A stretch of DNA of 41,920 nt from a virus. Below, piece by piece: positions 4,999 to 39,537 of the stretch. Under the pieces are notes generated by a model that was not told the origin of the DNA, did not search any database, and saw only the letters and a program-made list of their open reading frames with translations. The position numbers were made by a program, and so were the translations under genes. The stretch spans positions 1 to 41,920 of the IMG/VR virus record IMGVR_UViG_3300042261_000217, one strand, 5' to 3'. Within the stretch, counting starts at the first letter, position 1. Every line of letters starts with the position of its first letter.

Positions 4999-7900
4999 AT
5001 GACAGAAAAAAGAGTTCAGTTTAGCAACATCGTTAAGAATCAACTTCCTGCATATGTAAGGGAAGAGTTTCCATTAATATCTGAATTTCTTTCACAATAT
5101 TACATCTCACAGGAATTTAAAGGTGCGCCTGTTGATTTAATCCAGAATATAGATCAATATGTAAAAGTAGATGAACTTACAAATAACACTGAATATTTGT
5201 ATCTCAACTCTGATATAACCGATATTGATACGACTATCAATGTTGATGTTGGTTTGAATAATCAGGGTACGTCAGATTTTCCCGATTCTTATGGCTTAAT
5301 TCAAATTGATGATGAAATTATCACATATACTTCCAAAACATCAAATTCTTTCGTTGGATGTATAAGAGGTTTTAGTGGCATATCTTCTTATACTACACAG
5401 AATATCCCAGATCAACTAACATTTAAATCTACCGAATCTTCTAGTCACGCCAAGGGAACTAAAATTATTAATTTAAGTTCTCTATTCCTTAAAGAGTTTT
5501 TATCTAAAACAAAATATCAACTATCACCTGGATTTGAAGATAGATCTCTATATTCCGATTTAAATCAATCTATCTTTTTAAAGCAAATCAAAGATTTCTA
5601 TCAGAGCAAAGGAACTGATGAGTCTTTTGAAATTCTTTTTAAAGTTTTGTATGGAAAAGATGTAAAAATTATTCGACCAAAAGAAAATCTTTTCAGACCA
5701 TCAGATGCTCATTATAGATTAACAAATGACATTGTTGTAGAAAGCATTTCTGGTGATCCATCAAATCTAACAAATCAAACTTTATACCAAAATACTTACG
5801 ATACTATTTCTTATGCTCGCAGTCCAATAACTTATGTAGAAAAAATAATTTCTGGCATTGGAAATACTTATTATAAGTTAAGTTTAGACTCTGGGTATAA
5901 TAGGGATATTATTGCTAATGGTGCTACGATTGGAAAATTCACTGTTCATCCAAGAACAAAGATAGTAGGCCCAGTTTCTGCTGGAACAACTGTTTTTGAT
6001 GTAGATTCTACTGTTGGATTTCCAGCAAATGGACAACTTCTAGTAAATTATGGTGACCAAACTACAGGAATCGTTAGTTATACTTCAAAATCTTTAACTC
6101 AATTTTTTGGATGTTCTGGAGTTTCGAAAACTATTTTAGATGCTGCATCTGTTGGAATTAATACATATGCCTATGCATATGATCCAGATGGGTCTTTAGT
6201 AAAATTAAGAGTAACTTCAATTTTAAACTCTACAGAAATTTTGGGAGATACTAGGTATCACTATAAAAACGATACTTCTGTAATTAGAACTTTGGGTGTA
6301 AACTCTAACGATGTTTATTCAAGAGATTGGTTCTTTAATATTCCAATTTCTTATAAAGTAAAATCAATTGTTTCTCGGGGAACAAATGATACATATGATA
6401 TTACGACTTCGAATCCAAATATTTTAAAAATTGGAGACAAGATTGATATAATTACAAGTTCTGGTGATAAAAAATCATCGACTGTTATTGATTTAGTTTC
6501 AAATTCGACTTGTACTGTTAAAGGACAAGGATCATTAAGTTTAACTGATAGTTATACTATCAAAAAAAGCATACTTAAAGCAAGTTCTACTTATTTTTCT
6601 GGTATTTCTGTTGTAAACTCTAATGTTCAAAATATATACAAACTTGGAGATAGAACATTAGTTTCTTCTTCATCTATACCTTCATACTATAATCAATTAT
6701 TATCAACTACGGATAGATCCGTTACATTCTCTGGAACTTTTTCGGGGACAGTTTTTACTATAACTCCAAATTCAGATCACGGTTTCTATACTGGAGATAG
6801 TGTTTATTATACTCCAGAAAAAATTACGACAACATCCATAGATTCTCAAGGTTCTACTGTCACAACAACATCAATTAATAGTTCTTTATTTGATGAAGGA
6901 ATTTATTTCGTTAAAAGAATAGACTCTAGCAGAATTAGTCTTGCAAAAAGTAGAACTAATGTCTTTAATGGTATCTTTGTATCAATATCAAGCAGTACCA
7001 CAGTAACAAACAATAAGATTGAACTTTATGAGTTCAAATCTAAAACATTAGGGACACAAAAGTTACTTAGAGAATTATCTTCTCCAGTTGATGACGGTAA
7101 TATTTACAAGACGAATCCAGGATTTACTGGAATGCTTCTTAATGGTGTAGAGATTCTAAATTATAAGGCAAAAGAATCAATATATTATGGTGAGATAAAA
7201 GAAGTTGAAGTAACTGCTCCTGGGTCAAACTATGATATTATCAATCCTCCAGTTTTAAGTATCACAGATTCTCTGGGGGTAGGTGCAACAGGATTCTGTG
7301 CAATTAGTGGATCACTTCAAGAAATTAGAATTATTGATCCTGGATTTGATTACCTAGATACACCAATTATTAAAATTACAGGTGGTAATGGTGTTGGTGC
7401 AAAAGCATTTGCAAATATGAAGTTAGTAGAGCACGAATCTACTTTCAATTCTCAAGATAATGCAGATCTAATTGGAATTGGTAGCGCATTATCAACGATT
7501 GGATTTACAACATATCACAAATTTAGGAATGGTGAGCAAGTAATCTACAAAACAGATAGTCAAAGAGGTGTTGGTGGACTATCTACAGATTCTTCTTATT
7601 TTGTTTCTGTAAAAGATAACTTTACAATCAAGTTACACAAGACCTTAGATGATGTCATTTCTGGTATTAACACCATTACATTATCATCCTATGGTATTGG
7701 TAATCATAAACTTAAATCATATAATCAAAAATCTGTAGTTGGATCCATTAATATAGAAAATTCTGGATCTGGATATGAAAATAAGAAAAGAACAACCACA
7801 CATCTAGGAATCAATACTTCACTATCTCAAATCGCAATTAATAATCACGGATACAATTCCGGAGAAAAAATTGTATATACGACTGATTTCACACCAATTA

Positions 7901-28813: not shown

Positions 28814-29815
28814 ATGTTTGAATATTTTTATAACGAGATTCTAAGAAAAACAGTTATATCTTTTGGATCTCTGTTTAATAGCATATCAATTAAACACGTT
28901 GATAACTCGAATCAAGTTATTGATGTGATAAGGGTTCCATTAGCATATGGTCCAACTCAAAAATTCTTAGCAAGACTTGAACAGTCCCCAGATTTAAACA
29001 AACCTGTCCAAATTACATTACCAAGAATGTCATTTGAATTTACTGGGTTAACATATGATGCTTCAAGAAAAGTAACTACGACTCAAACTTTTACTTCAAA
29101 ATCTGCAGCAGATGGAACTGTAACAAAAAAAACGTATATGCCAGTTCCATATAATATGCAATTTGAACTTTCTATTATGGCAAAACTAAATGACGATGCC
29201 TTACAAATAGTTGAACAAATTTTACCATATTTTCAACCATCCTATAATTTATCTGTAGAACTCGTGGATGATATCAACGAAAGGAGAGATATTCCTGTAG
29301 TTCTAGAAAATGTAACATTCCAAGATGATTATGAAGGCAATTTCACATCTAGAAGAGTTTTAATTTACACATTAAGATTTACTGCGAAAACTTATCTATT
29401 TGGTCCAACACAAACTGCAACAAAAGATATCATCAAAAAGACTACTATCAGTTATATTGCCGGAGATACAACAGCAACTCCAACAAGAGAAGTTGTATAT
29501 TCTTCAGAACCAAGAGCAATCAAAAATTATACTGGAACAGTTCTCACAAATCTTGCAAAAGATATAACCGCAGAAGACATTTTAATAGAAGTTAATAATG
29601 CCTCTTCAATTTCTACCGATGTGTATCTAGATATCGAAGGCGAAGAAGTTTATGTTAGACTTAAAAATGGCAATGTTCTTACCGTTGATAGGGGCAGAGA
29701 TGGCACAACAATTACAACACATTTAGCAGGAGCTCAAATCAAATCAATAACCACTGCTGATAATGTATTGATTCAAGATGGGGATGATTTTGGATTTAGT
29801 GGAGACACTGTATGA
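28814..29815 (+). CDS. 15: gp15 tail completion / sheath stabiliser
   Basis: Residues 1-230 match gp15: FEYFYNEILRKTVISFGSLF, then VIRVPLAYGPTQKFLARLEQ, ITLPRMSFEF and the MPVPYNMQFELSIMAKLNDD segment. gp15 forms the hexameric cap on sheath and tube and joins tail to neck. T4 gp15 has 272 residues; this one has 333. The C-terminal ~90 residues hold an extra module at about 245-312 (DVYLDIEGEEVYVRL, then VDRGRDGTTITTHLAGAQI). The same module occurs in the gp7-like and 2,487-residue proteins. The gene has its own late promoter and its TGA overlaps the gp16 start by four bases (ATGA). Confidence 0.92.
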   Translation: MFEYFYNEILRKTVISFGSLFNSISIKHVDNSNQVIDVIRVPLAYGPTQKFLARLEQSPDLNKPVQITLPRMSFEFTGLTYDASRKVTTTQTFTSKSAADGTVTKKTYMPVPYNMQFELSIMAKLNDDALQIVEQILPYFQPSYNLSVELVDDINERRDIPVVLENVTFQDDYEGNFTSRRVLIYTLRFTAKTYLFGPTQTATKDIIKKTTISYIAGDTTATPTREVVYSSEPRAIKNYTGTVLTNLAKDITAEDILIEVNNASSISTDVYLDIEGEEVYVRLKNGNVLTVDRGRDGTTITTHLAGAQIKSITTADNVLIQDGDDFGFSGDTV

Positions 29816-30237
29816 AAATGACAAAGAAATTTGATGAGTTAAATAACACTTTCAATGTCTCTGGAGAAATAGTTTCAGCAGAAGCAGAGACTTCTATAGA
29901 AAAAATTGTGTCATCTGTTGACGATGTAAAAAAAGACTATGAGTATACGAGAGGTAATTTGTATTCTTTGATTGAAAAAGGTCAAGAAGCAATTAATGGA
30001 ATTTTAGAACTTGCCCAAGAAAGTGAAATGCCTAGAGCATATGAAGTCGCTGGGCAATTAATCAAAAATGTTGCTGATGCCACGGATAAATTAATGGACC
30101 TACAAAAGAAACTAAAGGATATTGAAGAGGAAAAAGTTTCTAAAGGTCCAACAACAGTCAATAATGCTCTTTTTGTTGGATCTACCGCAGAACTAGCAAA
30201 ACTATTAAAGCAACAAACGGAAAATGAAAACGTTTAA
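29812..30237 (+). CDS. 16: gp16 terminase small subunit
   Basis: At 141 residues it is near T4 gp16 (164). The central part is helical (VDDVKKDYEYTRGNLYSLIE, GQEAINGILELAQESEMPRA, AYEVAGQLIKNVADATDKLM), the typical central coiled-coil domain of T4-type small terminases. The C-terminus has VNNALFVGSTAELAKLLKQQ, a conserved tail in marine T4-like phages that may contact gp17. The protein recognises concatemeric DNA and stimulates gp17 ATPase. The 29812 start is favoured over ATG 29818 because GGAG at 29801-29804 is seven bases upstream. It overlaps gp15 by four bases and the next gene by 14. Confidence 0.9.
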   Translation: MKMTKKFDELNNTFNVSGEIVSAEAETSIEKIVSSVDDVKKDYEYTRGNLYSLIEKGQEAINGILELAQESEMPRAYEVAGQLIKNVADATDKLMDLQKKLKDIEEEKVSKGPTTVNNALFVGSTAELAKLLKQQTENENV

Positions 30238-30379
30238 ACAGTTTCAAGAAGATTGGACGAATAAATATAAAAAGAGTATTGATTGCTCAAATCCCAAAGG
30301 ATTTTCTCAACGTGCTCATTGTGCGGGAAGGAAAAAAAGAGCAAAAGGTGAAGAAACTAAATCAAACCCAGTTAAGTGA
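30224..30379 (+). CDS. Short basic protein with FSQRAHCAGR motif (51 aa)
   Basis: This frame runs from ATG 30224, inside the gp16 end, to TGA 30377-30379, which overlaps the next ATG by one base. It begins MKTFKQFQEDWTNKYKKSID and then has CSNPKGFSQRAHCAGRKKRA. I have seen the Cys-x-N-P-K-G-F-S-Q-x-A-H-C-x-G-R motif in small and multi-domain proteins of marine T4-like phages; its function is unknown to me. The spaced Cys, His and Cys with a basic tail could bind metal or nucleic acid, which is speculative. Its coupling with gp16 and the next gene suggests joint expression during packaging. Confidence 0.7.
   Translation: MKTFKQFQEDWTNKYKKSIDCSNPKGFSQRAHCAGRKKRAKGEETKSNPVK
30260..30267 (+). 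promoter_or_regulatory. Possible internal late promoter (AATAAATA)
   Basis: AATAAATA matches the late octamer at seven of eight positions but lies inside the 51-residue gene. It could drive the 564-residue gene and gp17. In AT-rich coding sequence, chance occurrence is likely, so support is weak. Confidence 0.25.
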
Positions 30380-32073
30380 TGCCCAAATTAAAGACACATA
30401 AAACAGTTGAACAAATTGCTAAAAAGCATCGTCTTGATGTGTCTTTTATTCAGAAACAACTTGATATGGGCGAACCAATTGAACACGAACACACCCAAGA
30501 TCACGATTTAGCAAAAGATATTGCTCTTCAACATCTTGATGAAATTCCAGATTACTATACTCGTTTGAAAAAAATGGAAGCAGACGCCAAAAAGCATCAT
30601 AAAAAATTTAAAGATGTTACTGAAGAAGGTCTTCGTGACTGGTTTGGCAAATCAAAATCAAAGGATGGAAAGTCTGGGTGGGTAAATGTTGTAACGGGTG
30701 GGACGTGTGCTAGTGATGAACCAGGAGAAGGTGTTCCCAAATGTGTTTCTTCAGCAAAAAGAGCAAGTATGACACCGACAGAAAGACTTTCTGCAGCAAG
30801 AAGAAAAAAACAAGCAGATCCAGGACAACAACAAAAAACTGGAGCAGCAAAACCAACATACGTTTCAACTGATAGTCCTAAAAAGAAAATGAAAAAAGAG
30901 GAAGTAGAACTACAAGAAGTTAAAGACAAACCAGGAAAAAGCAGTGGCAAAAAAGATGCTTGCTACAATAAGGTAAAGTCTCGCTACAGTGTTTGGCCAA
31001 GTGCATATGCATCTGGAGCACTTGTTAAGTGTCGCAAAGTTGGTGCTGCAAACTGGGGAACTAAGTCTGAAGAAACAATGCGAGAAGAAGAAAGATACTG
31101 TCCCCTATGTTCTAAAAGAGAAACAAGGTCCCAGTGTTCATATGGAGAAAAGGCGTGGGATAAAGTTTCCATTAAAGATCACGAATATTCTATGGCTCGC
31201 TCAGAATTAAGTACCATTTTGGATGCGGTTAAAAAATTACAATCAAAAATAGAAAATGGTGAAGGATCTTTAGAAGCCTGGGTTCAATCAAAAATTACCA
31301 AAGCGGCAGATTATATTGATACTGCAGCAGATTATGTTACAAGTGGAGAAATGGAAGAGGCGTGTTGGGTAGGATATAAGCAAGTTGGAATGAAAAAGAA
31401 AGGTAAAAAAATGGTTCCAAACTGTGTTCCTGAAGAGACAATTGAAGACTTAAATGGAAATACTTTTGCAGAAGTGATTGATCTCATTAAACCAGAACCA
31501 ATTAAAGGGTTTAAATCACAAGTAGAAGAAGCAACACGTCTTCAAGCACAGACTGGAAATATTATTGGAGTTACTCTTTCTTGGAGAGGTAAGTATTATT
31601 CTCTAAGAATGTTCTTCCCTCAAGTTAAACTTCCAACTCGTAAAGAAATTAATGATGAACTTCAAAAAGTTTATCCTGGTTCTAATGTAGTTTATCATTC
31701 AGTATCAGAACTTCAACCAGGACAACCTCTAATTCAAGCCTTTGGACCCCAAGGCGGAAGTTCAGCAAAACTAGGACCAAATAAAAATTATGTAAAACCA
31801 ATGGGTGAAGAGGCAGATATTGTAGAAGTTGCTGCGTGGCAAAGAAAAGAAGGAAAAAATAGAGAGGGTGGTTTAAATGAAAAGGGAAGAAAATCCTATG
31901 AACGCGAAAATCCAGGAAGTGATTTAAAAGCACCTTCAAAGAAGGTAGGTAATCCTCGTAGAGCATCATTCTGTGCAAGAATGAAAGGAATGAAAGCAAA
32001 ACTAACTTCAGCAAAAACTGCAAGAGATCCAGATTCAAGAATCAACAAGTCACTTAGAGCTTGGAATTGTTAA
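30379..32073 (+). CDS. Multi-module Lys-rich phage protein between terminase genes (564 aa)
   Basis: The ATG at 30379 overlaps the previous TGA (TGATG) and is preferred over a GTG one codon earlier. It is a string of short cassettes: an N-terminal helix pair (residues 1-75); WFGKSKSKDGKSGWVNVVTG with GTCASDEPG (about 87-125); a Lys/Gln-rich linker; DACYNKVKSRYSVWPSAYAS with GALVKCRKVG (about 193-225); CPLCSKRETRSQC (about 241-255); CWVGYKQVGMKKKGKKMVPN (about 329-349); a folded-looking region (about 360-450); and a basic C-terminal domain at about 487-564 (WQRKEGKNREGGLNEKGRKS ... ASFCARMKGMKAKLTSAKTA) that I recall as DUF6321-like. Such cassettes recur in other marine phage proteins. It may be a packaged or DNA-binding structural protein; the function is not established. 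Codon use matches its neighbours. Confidence 0.78.
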   Translation: MPKLKTHKTVEQIAKKHRLDVSFIQKQLDMGEPIEHEHTQDHDLAKDIALQHLDEIPDYYTRLKKMEADAKKHHKKFKDVTEEGLRDWFGKSKSKDGKSGWVNVVTGGTCASDEPGEGVPKCVSSAKRASMTPTERLSAARRKKQADPGQQQKTGAAKPTYVSTDSPKKKMKKEEVELQEVKDKPGKSSGKKDACYNKVKSRYSVWPSAYASGALVKCRKVGAANWGTKSEETMREEERYCPLCSKRETRSQCSYGEKAWDKVSIKDHEYSMARSELSTILDAVKKLQSKIENGEGSLEAWVQSKITKAADYIDTAADYVTSGEMEEACWVGYKQVGMKKKGKKMVPNCVPEETIEDLNGNTFAEVIDLIKPEPIKGFKSQVEEATRLQAQTGNIIGVTLSWRGKYYSLRMFFPQVKLPTRKEINDELQKVYPGSNVVYHSVSELQPGQPLIQAFGPQGGSSAKLGPNKNYVKPMGEEADIVEVAAWQRKEGKNREGGLNEKGRKSYERENPGSDLKAPSKKVGNPRRASFCARMKGMKAKLTSAKTARDPDSRINKSLRAWNC

Positions 32074-32092: not shown

Positions 32093-33739
32093 ATGAGTGA
32101 TGTCTATCTTGGCAATCCATTACTAAAAAAAGCAAATACACCTATTGAATTTACTCAAGAACAAATTCTTGAATTTATGAGGTGTAAAGATGATCCTGTT
32201 TATTTTGCTAATAACTATGTAAAAATTGTTACTCTTGATCACGGTCTACAAACATTTAAACCTTATCACTTTCAAGAAAAGTTAATTAATAACTTCCATA
32301 GAAATAGATTTAATATCTGCAAGATGCCACGTCAGACTGGTAAGTCTACAACTGTGGTATCTTTTCTGCTTCATTATGCGGTATTCAATGATAACGTAAA
32401 CATTGGTATTCTTGCAAACAAAGCGGCAACTGCAAGAGAACTATTAGATAGATTACAGACTGCTTATGAAAATCTACCAAAGTGGATGCAGCAAGGTATC
32501 ATAGCATGGAATAAAGGTTCTTTAGAATTAGAAAATGGATCAAAGATTCTGGCTGCTTCTACATCTGCGAGTGCTGTCCGAGGAATGTCATTCAATATTC
32601 TTTTCTTGGATGAATTCGCTTTCGTTCCGAACCATATCGCAGATTCCTTCTTTGCATCTGTTTATCCTACCATTACTTCTGGTAAACAAACGAAAGTTAT
32701 CATAGTTTCTACTCCACACGGTATGAATCATTTCTACCGTATGTGGCATGATGCTGAAAAAGGTAAGAATGAATATGTGTTTACAGATGTTCATTGGAGT
32801 GAAGTTCCTGGTAGAGACGAGGAATGGAAAAAGCAAACTATTGCAAACACATCAGAACAACAATTCAAAGTTGAATTTGAATGTGAATTTTTAGGGTCTG
32901 TTGATACTCTTATTGCACCGTCTAAACTTCGTAACCTTGTATACGACCACCCAAAGACCCGTAGCGGCGGTTTAGACGTATATGTGGATCCAGAAGATCA
33001 GCACGATTACCTCATCACTGTGGACGTTGCTAGAGGTGTAGGAAATGACTATTCAGCGTTTACTGTTGTTGATATTACACAATTTCCTCATAGGGTCGTT
33101 GCAAAATACAGAAACAATGAAATTAAACCAATGTTGTTTCCAAGTATCATTCACGATGTAGCAAAGAGTTATAACAACTCATATATTTTATGTGAAGTTA
33201 ATGATGTTGGTGATCAAGTAGCATCTATTCTTCAATATGATCTTGAATATAATAATCTTTTAATGTGTTCTATGAGAGGTAGAGCGGGACAAATCGTTGG
33301 TCAGGGATTTTCTGGAAAGAAAACTCAACTTGGGGTTAAGATGTCTAAAACTGTTAAAAAAGTTGGATGTCTCAACCTTAAGACAATGATTGAAGAGGAT
33401 AAATTATATCTAAATGATTATGAAATCATATCCGAACTTACCACTTTTATTCAAAAACATAATTCATTTGAAGCAGAAGAAGGATGTAATGATGACCTTG
33501 CAATGTGTCTTGTTATTTACGCTTGGTTAGTTGCTCAAGATTACTTTAAAGAACTTACGGACCAAGACGTTAGGAAAAGATTATATGAAGAACAAAAGAA
33601 TCAAATAGAACAAGATATGTCTCCTTTTGGATTTATCTCAGATGGTCTCGATGATTCAAGTTTTGTAGATTCGGATGGAGATCGATGGTTTTTGGATGAA
33701 TATGGAGATCGTGCGTATATGTGGGAGTACTTATCCTGA
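32093..33739 (+). CDS. 17: gp17 terminase large subunit
   Basis: At 548 residues it is somewhat shorter than T4 gp17 (610). The ATPase domain has Walker A at about residues 79-87 (PRQTGKSTT) and Walker B at about 168-174 (ILFLDEFAF), followed by a VIIVSTPHG coupling motif. The RNase H-like nuclease domain shows its acidic residues in VDVARGVGNDYSAF (about 308), EVNDVGDQ (about 368) and CNDDLAMCLVIYAW (about 465). It is the packaging motor: it translocates DNA into the prohead through gp20 and cuts the concatemer. No intein or intron interrupts it. Its TGA overlaps the next ATG. Confidence 0.96.
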   Translation: MSDVYLGNPLLKKANTPIEFTQEQILEFMRCKDDPVYFANNYVKIVTLDHGLQTFKPYHFQEKLINNFHRNRFNICKMPRQTGKSTTVVSFLLHYAVFNDNVNIGILANKAATARELLDRLQTAYENLPKWMQQGIIAWNKGSLELENGSKILAASTSASAVRGMSFNILFLDEFAFVPNHIADSFFASVYPTITSGKQTKVIIVSTPHGMNHFYRMWHDAEKGKNEYVFTDVHWSEVPGRDEEWKKQTIANTSEQQFKVEFECEFLGSVDTLIAPSKLRNLVYDHPKTRSGGLDVYVDPEDQHDYLITVDVARGVGNDYSAFTVVDITQFPHRVVAKYRNNEIKPMLFPSIIHDVAKSYNNSYILCEVNDVGDQVASILQYDLEYNNLLMCSMRGRAGQIVGQGFSGKKTQLGVKMSKTVKKVGCLNLKTMIEEDKLYLNDYEIISELTTFIQKHNSFEAEEGCNDDLAMCLVIYAWLVAQDYFKELTDQDVRKRLYEEQKNQIEQDMSPFGFISDGLDDSSFVDSDGDRWFLDEYGDRAYMWEYLS

Positions 33740-33969
33740 TGGAATTAGACAAGCAAATAAGATTAGGGCATTTGCTTTTAGTAGATCGAAAATGTAGGGT
33801 ATGCGGAGAAATGAAAAATTTAATAGATGGATTTTATCAAACTCGTAAAGATAGGGGACCTGTATTATCTTCATATTCTTACGAATGCAAAGAATGCACT
33901 ATAAAAAGAATAGTTGTTGGTAGAACAACAACGTCAATTTTAAATAAATGGGAATATCCTGACTGGTAA
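33739..33969 (+). CDS. Small zinc-ribbon-like protein (76 aa)
   Basis: The ATG at 33739 overlaps the gp17 stop (TGATG). An in-frame GTG at 33721 exists but would overlap gp17 further. CRVCGEMK (about residues 19-26) and CKECTIKR (about 55-62) give two CxxC pairs 33 residues apart, the layout of a zinc ribbon. Between them lies FYQTRKDRGPVLSSYSYE. Comparable C-x2-C-GE-x-K small proteins occur in marine T4-like phages, sometimes near HNH-type nuclease sequences. No HNH catalytic residues are visible here, so it is called zinc-binding only. A link to packaging is inferred from tight coupling to gp17. Confidence 0.72.
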   Translation: MELDKQIRLGHLLLVDRKCRVCGEMKNLIDGFYQTRKDRGPVLSSYSYECKECTIKRIVVGRTTTSILNKWEYPDW

Positions 33970-38793: not shown

Positions 38794-39537
38794 ATGTCCG
38801 ATTTATCTGAGTTCTTTAACGCAATTGCTGAAGCAAAGAGTTTTCAAAAACAGGAGATGGATGCTCTTGTTGGAAATTCTTTTGAAGAACTTTTTGTAGA
38901 GAAACTAATACCAAAACCAAAAAAGAAAAAAGAACAAGAAATCAAAGAAGAACCAAAAGAAAAGTTTATCAACGAAGGTCTTCTAAACATTCTTCCACAA
39001 GAAAAGACACCAGACCCACTTACTCCACTCAATCAAAACTATGCAACACTTGAAGATTTACAGAATCATTATAAACTCTTCCTCAATCGTATTCAGCAGC
39101 AACTTTCCACAATAGGTGGGGGTGGTGAAACTCGTCTTGAGTTTTTAGATGATGTTGATAGAAATACTGCAAAGACCGATAATTATTTTCTCAAATATAA
39201 TGCGTCTCTGAATAAATGGGTAGGAGATCCTGCTGATGGTGTTGGTATTACAAGTATTGTATCCATCACAGGAGTTACTACATATTATCAGGCAACAGAT
39301 ACTGATGATTATATTGGAGTAAATGCAAGTGTTCCTGTAACAATAGTTCTTCCAACATCTCCAAGTATAGGCAAAAAAATCATCGTCAAAGATGAGGGAA
39401 ATAATATATCTACATATAGTATTACAGTTCAGGCAGGTATTGGTAAAAGTGTTGAAAACGATACTTCGGTGATTATGAATATCAATCACCAATCCCTAAC
39501 TTATTTTTATAACAATTCCAACTGGTTTTTAATTTAA
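38794..39537 (+). CDS. Virion structural / fibre-associated protein (247 aa)
   Basis: The N-terminal ~100 residues are helical and charged (MSDLSEFFNAIAEAKSFQKQ, a KPKKKKEQEIKEEPKEK linker, then YATLEDLQNHYKLFLNRIQQ). A Gly stretch (about residue 108-112) leads into RLEFLDDVDRN and FLKYNASLNKWVGD, a motif I recall in T4-like cyanophage fibre and structural proteins. The C-terminal ~90 residues are beta-rich (PVTIVLPTSPSIGKKIIVKD, SYSITVQAG-type, SLTYFYNNSNWFLI), like a small fibre-tip or capsid-decoration domain. It is likely a virion protein; the exact location is unknown. It ends one base before the next gene, and the three genes up to gp21 probably form a unit. Confidence 0.72.
   Translation: MSDLSEFFNAIAEAKSFQKQEMDALVGNSFEELFVEKLIPKPKKKKEQEIKEEPKEKFINEGLLNILPQEKTPDPLTPLNQNYATLEDLQNHYKLFLNRIQQQLSTIGGGGETRLEFLDDVDRNTAKTDNYFLKYNASLNKWVGDPADGVGITSIVSITGVTTYYQATDTDDYIGVNASVPVTIVLPTSPSIGKKIIVKDEGNNISTYSITVQAGIGKSVENDTSVIMNINHQSLTYFYNNSNWFLI

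Follow-up and report, generated by a model that had tools for sequence, protein, structure and literature searches.

Two genes between the terminase subunits

The window analysed here, the whole 41,920-base IMG/VR virus record IMGVR_UViG_3300042261_000217, holds a T4-like tail, neck and packaging cluster in which two open reading frames (ORFs), one encoding a 51-residue protein (ORF51) and one a 564-residue modular protein, lie between the genes for the small (gp16) and large (gp17) terminase subunits (Table 1). A preliminary description made from the sequence had placed both ORFs there; their coordinates stand as described, both flanks are identified by Pfam and PHROGs, and the motifs it named are all present (CSNPKGFSQRAHCAGR in ORF51; KSRYSVWPSAYASGALVKC, CPLC...C and CWVGYKQVGMKKKGKKMVPN in the 564-residue ORF), as are the basic C-terminus (net +14 over the last 81 residues) and the start of gp17 19 bases past the stop of the larger ORF. 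Of the stop-start overlaps it had proposed, the one joining ORF51 to the 564-residue ORF was recovered (TGATG, 30377-30381), while gp16 and ORF51 instead share a 14-base overlap (30224-30237). The likely start of the 564-residue ORF is the ATG at 30379 (MPKLK...), backed by relatives, and not the GTG at 30376. Adjacency of gp16 and gp17 is indeed normal in T4, where the two genes overlap (96194-96688; 96672 onward), and ORF51 and the 564-residue gene are therefore insertions relative to T4.

The larger protein matches phrog_727 (E 9e-126), phrog_3477 (E 3e-107), PF18905 (DUF5661; E 1e-13) and PF19846 (DUF6321; E 4e-22), with relatives in 534 of 50,697 phage records, mostly from Synechococcus and Prochlorococcus phages. 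The homologue in phage S-SM2, placed between gp16 and gp17, is T4-GC119. Statements credited below to papers by PMC identifier refer to the portions of their open text that were covered; in that of Sullivan et al. 2010 (PMC3037559), the gp16-gp17 site is a hot spot and T4-GC119 is mentioned as hypothetical. The protein had been put forward as undescribed, which holds for its function and not for the gene.

A search for the cassettes across phages and their genomic neighbours, suggested at the outset, yielded 184 distinct homologous ORFs (the window's own protein included, and drawn from the best 80 or fewer loci per viral scan, so that close relatives are over-represented). Genes were recognisable on both sides of 83, with gp16 and gp17 flanking 81 and gp14 and gp17 the other two; the 101 with one flank or none recognisable were left out of this count. 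The S-SSM7 homologue lies elsewhere, away from the terminase genes. Other occupants of the gp16-gp17 site include plastocyanin, PTOX, gnd and zwf (syn9) and a tail-fibre-like gene (S-SM2), and because many unrelated genes share the site, position tells little about function. Neither Pfam nor PHROGs gave any homology to packaging proteins, and a sequence search of the PDB gave no match at E 10. In cellular genomes DUF6321 was found at 23 loci, mostly on contigs of metagenome-assembled genomes; gp16 or gp17 also occurs on six of the 23, which look like phage contigs.

Cassette architecture

Sixteen cassette hidden Markov models (HMMs), an incomplete list drawn up by eye in which G and G2 are variants of one cassette and D and Q are related, resolve the 184 homologues into 110 distinct cassette orders. 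The number of Cys is fixed per cassette (Table 1), including two in A (30/31) and J (140/155) and none in B (62/62), and Cys content is 2.9% within cassettes versus 0.4% outside. This constancy and the 534 records with relatives place the gene well beyond a chance ORF. A further cassette rich in C and H, O, was found in relatives and not in the window. Many residues are invariant and the cysteines near-invariant across 43 homologues, and the AlphaFold model made with 43 homologues (mean predicted local distance difference test (pLDDT) 55.9; predicted template modelling score 0.23) suggests short folded pieces on a disordered string. None of the 289 matches in a fold search of the PDB was at E 0.001 or less, and the top matches in BFVD were mostly proteins of the same family.

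The Cys pairs and positive charge had earlier been taken to suggest binding to DNA or metal. Set against a zinc criterion of four Cys/His, the units have two Cys (A, C, D, G and J) or three (E), and zinc binding as a general rule was dropped because most Cys-bearing cassettes of the window have exactly two; judged from composition, a disulfide would suit the two-Cys cassettes no less well than a metal site would.

Glycine-zipper-like stretches, possibly membrane-active, occur between cassettes in some homologues (S-SSM7 gp114, L237:3298-4779; L102:2-2731; L080:5668-7650).

Table 1. Genes, cassettes and predicted protease sites between and including gp16 and gp17 (positions in the window)
Feature	Position	Strand	Basis or remark
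gp16, terminase small subunit (flank)	29812..30237	+	PF11053 E 6e-9, phrog_445 E 5e-56
ORF51, separate cassette A (two Cys), CTS-like N-terminus	30224..30379	+	start MKTFKQFQED
CTS-like decapeptide of ORF51, MKTFKQFQED	30224..30253	+	F4, F7; compared with T4 ipI, ipII, ipIII
564-residue modular protein, T4-GC119 family	30379..32073	+	phrog_727, phrog_3477
Cassette B, DUF5661, helical, no Cys	30409..30579	+	PF18905 E 1e-13; pLDDT mostly 62-88 per block
Predicted prohead-protease site VTE/EGLRDWF (cut after VTE)	30622..30624	+	junction motif, model
Cassette C (GLRDWF...C...C), two Cys	30628..30873	+	own HMM; two Cys in 139/139 distinct copies
Predicted site LQE/VKDKPG (cut after LQE; P3 = L, strict)	30916..30918	+	junction motif, model
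Cassette D (ACYNKVKSRYSVWPSAYASGALVKC), two Cys	30934..31068	+	two Cys in 100/100 distinct copies
Predicted site MRE/EERYC (cut after MRE)	31084..31086	+	junction motif, model
Cassette E (RYCPLC...C), three Cys	31093..31170	+	three Cys in 76/78 distinct copies
Cassette F, two long helices, no Cys	31177..31341	+	HMM; helices 272-293, 301-322
Predicted site MEE/ACWVGY (cut after MEE)	31357..31359	+	junction motif, model
Cassette G (CWVGYKQVGMKKKGKKMVPNC), two Cys	31363..31431	+	two Cys in 46/46 distinct copies; strands 334-342, 345-352
Predicted site VPE/ETIED (cut after VPE)	31432..31434	+	junction motif, model
Cassette H (TIEDLNGNTFAEVIDLIKPEP), acidic	31438..31509	+	HMM; mean net charge -3.2
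Predicted site VEE/ATRLQ (cut after VEE)	31528..31530	+	junction motif, model
Cassette I, strand-strand-helix-strand domain	31531..31740	+	hhalign 95.7%, E 1e-8 vs 104-aa family
Predicted site MGE/EADIV (cut after MGE)	31807..31809	+	junction motif, model
Predicted site IVE/VAAWQRK (cut after IVE; P3 = I, strict)	31825..31827	+	junction motif, model
Cassette J, DUF6321, strongly basic, two Cys	31831..32070	+	PF19846 E 4e-22; mean net charge +15.8
gp17, terminase large subunit (flank)	32093..33739	+	PF03237 E 1e-25
CTS, capsid-targeting sequence; P3, third residue before the cut.

A protease motif at the cassette junctions

Cleavage sites of gp21, the T4 prohead protease, had been proposed as something to look for, and the junctions between cassettes are enriched in [ILVM]xE, which was found in 595 of the 784 distinct junction segments, compared with a shuffled expectation of 273 (standard deviation 13). 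As offset controls, [ILVM]E was present in 255 segments (292 shuffled) and [ILVM]xxE in 384 (254), and the extended motif [ILVM]xE[AGS] in 251 versus 52. With the first residue restricted to L or I, enrichment is confined to the xE spacing (271 vs 127), and gaps of 0, 2, 3 and 4 do not exceed expectation. When each cassette pair was represented by a single randomly drawn junction, the motif was present in 64.4 of 87 compared to 28.4 expected, and it stands before ten or more unrelated cassettes. For the last Glu in each junction (698 sequence windows), P3 is I, L, V or M in 54% and the residue following the cut (P1') is A, G or S in 42%, compared to 11% and 18%, respectively, for Glu within cassettes (1,422 sequence windows). 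A first test at every Glu, with cassettes and linkers pooled, gave a mild preference (hydrophobic at -2 in 26% vs 18% overall). In the window, eight of the twelve [ILVM]xE motifs lie at junctions, all in or beside segments with pLDDT below 50.

In T4 and its giant-phage relatives, gp21 and related proteases cut C-terminal to Glu (PMC5694885). The T4 major capsid protein gp23 has a precursor of 521 residues and a mature form of 456, which places the cut after LTE-65 (LTE then A). The aligned gp23 site reads IAE then Q in S-SM2 and LAE then A in S-SCSM1, while metagenomic loci, where the site was readable with the anchor used in 55 of 80, mostly have LxE (LTE, LME, LSE, LNE) followed by A, Q, S or T among the sequences listed. 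Compared at the level of sequence, the junction motif is a match to the predicted gp21 site of this phage clade.

A virion-labelled protein of S-SCSM1 with no assigned function, SSCSM1_89 (L242:36357-37328), ranks third of 189 ORFs in that genome for excess [ILV]xE[AGS] and may be another gp21 substrate.

Capsid-targeting sequences on separate cassettes

In T4, the first ten residues of internal protein (IP) III target it to the prohead; within this CTS residues 4 and 7 matter in targeting and 8 and 10 in processing, and Asp at position 10 stops processing and leaves targeting intact (PMC9026906). T4 ipII and ipIII both start with MKTYQEFIAE then A, and ipI starts with MKTFKEF. The start of ORF51 resembles these and is the only one of 206 starts in the window to fit M..[FY]..F..[ED]; given Q8 and D10, targeting without efficient cleavage is predicted. 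The comparison with the T4 IPs concerns the N-terminal decapeptide only, and no match to an IP family turned up in the Pfam and PHROGs scans.

The association of this tag with cassettes extends well beyond the window. Among small closed ORFs, CTS-like starts were present in 93 of the 114 that are standalone cassettes versus 82 of 9,773 others, and were distributed by cassette as A 28/28, B 1/1, C 3/4, E 0/3, I 52/56, J 7/20, L 1/1 and M 1/1. Of the 30 strict matches listed among the other small ORFs, 27 resemble further members of the family of SSCSM1_30, a 104-residue S-SCSM1 protein that shows homology to cassette I over its body (hhalign 95.7%, E 1e-8). In the S-SCSM1 genome two of 1,987 ATG starts match ^MK[TSN][FY]..F[ILVM].E (0.0015 expected), namely SSCSM1_30, directly after the T4-GC119 homologue, and SSCSM1_91, an NMNAT; in S-SM2 the single match among 1,939 starts (0.001 expected) is the NMNAT-like T4-GC190. 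The SSCSM1_30 family has a CTS with a gp21-type site in 76 of 78 readable N-termini (78 of 80 loci could be read), as do 40 of 46 NMNAT relatives (start readable in 46 of 49 loci). Loosely defined CTS-like stretches also occur internally in 20 of the 184 homologues.

Several further observations concern these tags. The NMNAT-like enzymes of S-SCSM1 (L242:38819-40048) and S-SM2 (T4-GC190; L458:30761-31987) have a strict CTS followed by LxE then A. In S-SM2, the gene before T4-GC119 (SSM2_108, L002:5276-5704) encodes MKTLKQFLKE, a gp23-arm-like stretch and a terminal cassette A; both SSM2_108 and the protein at L111:1112-1543 combine a CTS with a duplicate of the N-terminal arm of mature gp23 (PTNSVGNGGYTSAGGQTVAG), and small proteins of this type are possible capsid-protein mimics. 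A FSNWREEL-type stretch that resembles an internal targeting sequence recurs in the linkers of 35 of the 184 homologues (loose pattern; e.g., L054:5836-7443, L034:5866-7467, L003:5899-7725).

Virion annotation of relatives

By annotation, relatives of the 564-residue protein are present in virions. The T4-GC119 homologue of S-SCSM1, SSCSM1_29, is labelled 'virion protein' in its record, and the S-B43 homologue is noted as a T4-like structural protein, cyanophage only, GC0119. The S-SCSM1 paper reports 45 proteins detected by mass spectrometry and, in the portion covered, leaves undecided if the NMNAT found in virions is carried by them or a contaminant (PMC9602691). T4-GC119 of S-SM2 is annotated with the note 'similar to Synechococcus phage S-SM1 protein', which in that record is otherwise attached mainly to known virion proteins and to neither gp16 nor gp17; this note appears to mark the S-SM1 virion proteome.

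A predicted cargo polyprotein of the phage head

The products of the two genes are probably internal head proteins in a T4-like cyanophage, the 564-residue protein being a cargo polyprotein cut by gp21. ORF51, a two-Cys microprotein, would be drawn into the prohead core by its CTS-like N-terminus, where it would be packed but poorly cut, and the polyprotein of nine cassettes would join the same core. During head maturation gp21 would cut the polyprotein after the Glu of the inter-cassette [ILVM]xE motifs. The predicted products have 25-98 residues, apart from a single six-residue piece, and several would be basic with a cysteine pair. These pieces would accompany the DNA in the head and exit together with it on infection, like T4 IPI-III and Alt. 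Given that IPI of T4 is a restriction-enzyme inhibitor and that Alt modifies RNA polymerase (PMC9958956, PMC9026906), a role of the modules in anti-defence or takeover of the host would, by analogy, be a fair guess. The early proposal of a packaged or packaging-associated protein survives in its first part, through the virion and structural labels on relatives, the gp21-like junctions and the CTS on standalone cassettes, and not in its link to the terminase.

A number of observations weigh against this interpretation. ORF51 has no gp21 site ([IL]xE then A, S or G) after its CTS-like start, and its Q8 and D10 predict poor processing, while the 564-residue protein has no N-terminal CTS, which is present in eight of the 184 homologues. 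Junctions share descent, so the motif counts are not independent; V and M are raised at the xE spacing and also at the next gaps, an offset signal less clean than for L and I, and P3 is I or L in two of the eight junction sites of the window and V or M in the others. The motif is absent from junctions before H and Q and weak before E and F. By whole-protein motif count among the 189 ORFs of S-SCSM1, the T4-GC119 homologue is unexceptional (z 1.6 and 1.2) and its motif signal is thus positional. The 48 coding sequences with virion labels in the S-SCSM1 record agree nearly but not exactly with the 45 proteins reported as detected, and SSCSM1_30, the CTS gene, has no virion-protein label. Finally, the window record stops before gp21-gp23, such that its own protease gene lies outside it.

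Alternatively, the protein could be a component of the prohead core or scaffold, digested by gp21 with most fragments exiting the head before DNA entry, as for T4 gp22, gp67 and gp68. The many gp21-type sites, the large protein without an N-terminal CTS and the beads-on-a-string model suit such a component, and gp22, the scaffold protein that ranks first of the 189 S-SCSM1 ORFs for excess [ILV]xE[AGS], is virion-labelled along with gp21, so that the label is no proof of a cargo role. A scaffold role is nonetheless rather unlikely, as conservation is strong across the cassettes, which are folded or cysteine-paired units, and the same cassettes exist as separate CTS-tagged genes, like the T4 IPs. 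We know of no such modules in T4 scaffold pieces, which also counts against a scaffold role.

An uncut virion protein, bound to the capsid or associated with the neck, with Glu-rich linkers as flexible spacers, would account for the virion labels, for the Glu- and Lys-rich composition of the linkers and for the unexceptional whole-protein motif count in S-SCSM1. It is an unlikely explanation given that [LI]xE is specific in its offset and that the preference for A, G or S at P1' is seen at junctions and not at Glu inside cassettes.

It is very improbable that the protein is a terminase helper, that is, an accessory packaging or DNA-binding protein. The position of 81 of the 83 homologues, the overlap with gp16 and the basic cassettes speak for such a role; the site is however a published hot spot where metabolic and tail-fibre genes are inserted as well, the S-SSM7 gene lies elsewhere and packaging-protein homology was not found in Pfam or PHROGs, and the idea was dropped on account of the hot-spot character of the site and the S-SSM7 exception. 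That the gene is a passive leftover from a mobile cassette region, without any selected function, is scarcely credible, for although the site is hypervariable with homing-type endonucleases nearby, the invariant residues and near-invariant cysteines in 43 homologues already suggest purifying selection and the family is present in hundreds of phages.

Comparison with known head-protein systems

As predicted internal head proteins, the two genes share several features with T4 IPI, IPII, IPIII and Alt, including small basic proteins with a CTS-like N-terminus (here ORF51 and the separate cassettes), an [IL]xE protease motif and a gene content that varies between phages. They differ in that many modules are fused in one polyprotein and that a CTS is usually missing from the N-terminus of the large protein. 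The T4 core proteins gp22, gp67 and gp68 likewise have several gp21-type sites per protein and no CTS, but form one helical scaffold, whereas the modules here are conserved and bear cysteines. The ejection proteins of the giant phages phiKZ and SPN3US are head proteins that travel with the DNA after a prohead protease has cut them C-terminal to Glu; that cleavage takes off long N-terminal propeptides, while here the predicted cuts would separate many modules (PMC5694885, PMC10052503).

T4-GC119 and PHROGs 727 and 3477 (DUF6321, DUF5661) have the same sequence family, gp16-gp17 place and structural or virion labels; the cassette code, the protease-site pattern and the link to CTS genes come from the present analysis, and the literature covered gives no mechanism. 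The gene and its site are known; judged by the open PMC text, the functional reading is new: in the portions covered, no description was found of CTS or gp21 sites in cyanophage T4-GC119 or NMNAT, no paper naming DUF6321 or DUF5661 was found (DUF5872 is named), and the covered part of the P-SCSP1u cryo-EM paper held nothing on the DUF6321 gene.

T4-like cyanophages are abundant in the ocean and the contents of their heads besides DNA are largely unassigned. It is possible, though tentative, that ocean cyanophages possess an interchangeable cargo of shuffled cysteine-paired modules, loaded singly by a CTS or as a polyprotein cut by the head protease and injected with enzymes such as NMNAT against the cyanobacterial host or its defences. 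A readable tag and cut site would allow injected proteins to be predicted in hundreds of genomes, the CTS on NMNAT offers a reason for its presence in cyanophage virions, and the 'hypothetical' T4-GC119 proteins become testable as multi-cargo precursors.

Separate DUF6321 genes and neighbouring genes

Cassette J also occurs as a separate DUF6321 gene in the cyanopodovirus P-SCSP1a, directly after the major capsid gene, and in the pelagiphage HTVC027P, about 3 kb before it; both proteins differ from the polyprotein in that [ILVM]xE sites are absent. In P-SCSP1a, the DUF6321 gene (L235:5959-6213) and a gene for a 58-residue protein with GLYANIHAK (6201-6377) directly follow the major capsid gene, and GLYANIHAK is also found behind the CTS-like N-termini of some polyprotein homologues.

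Within the window, a gene for an 82-residue endonuclease VII-like protein (33721-33969; phrog_4723) overlaps the 3' end of gp17, and endonucleases at this spot are known from cyanophages (PMC3037559). A tail-fibre-like gene (38794-39537; phrog_30742) lies between gp20 and a virion structural gene (phrog_1645), at the site where T4 gene order predicts gp67, gp68 and gp21.

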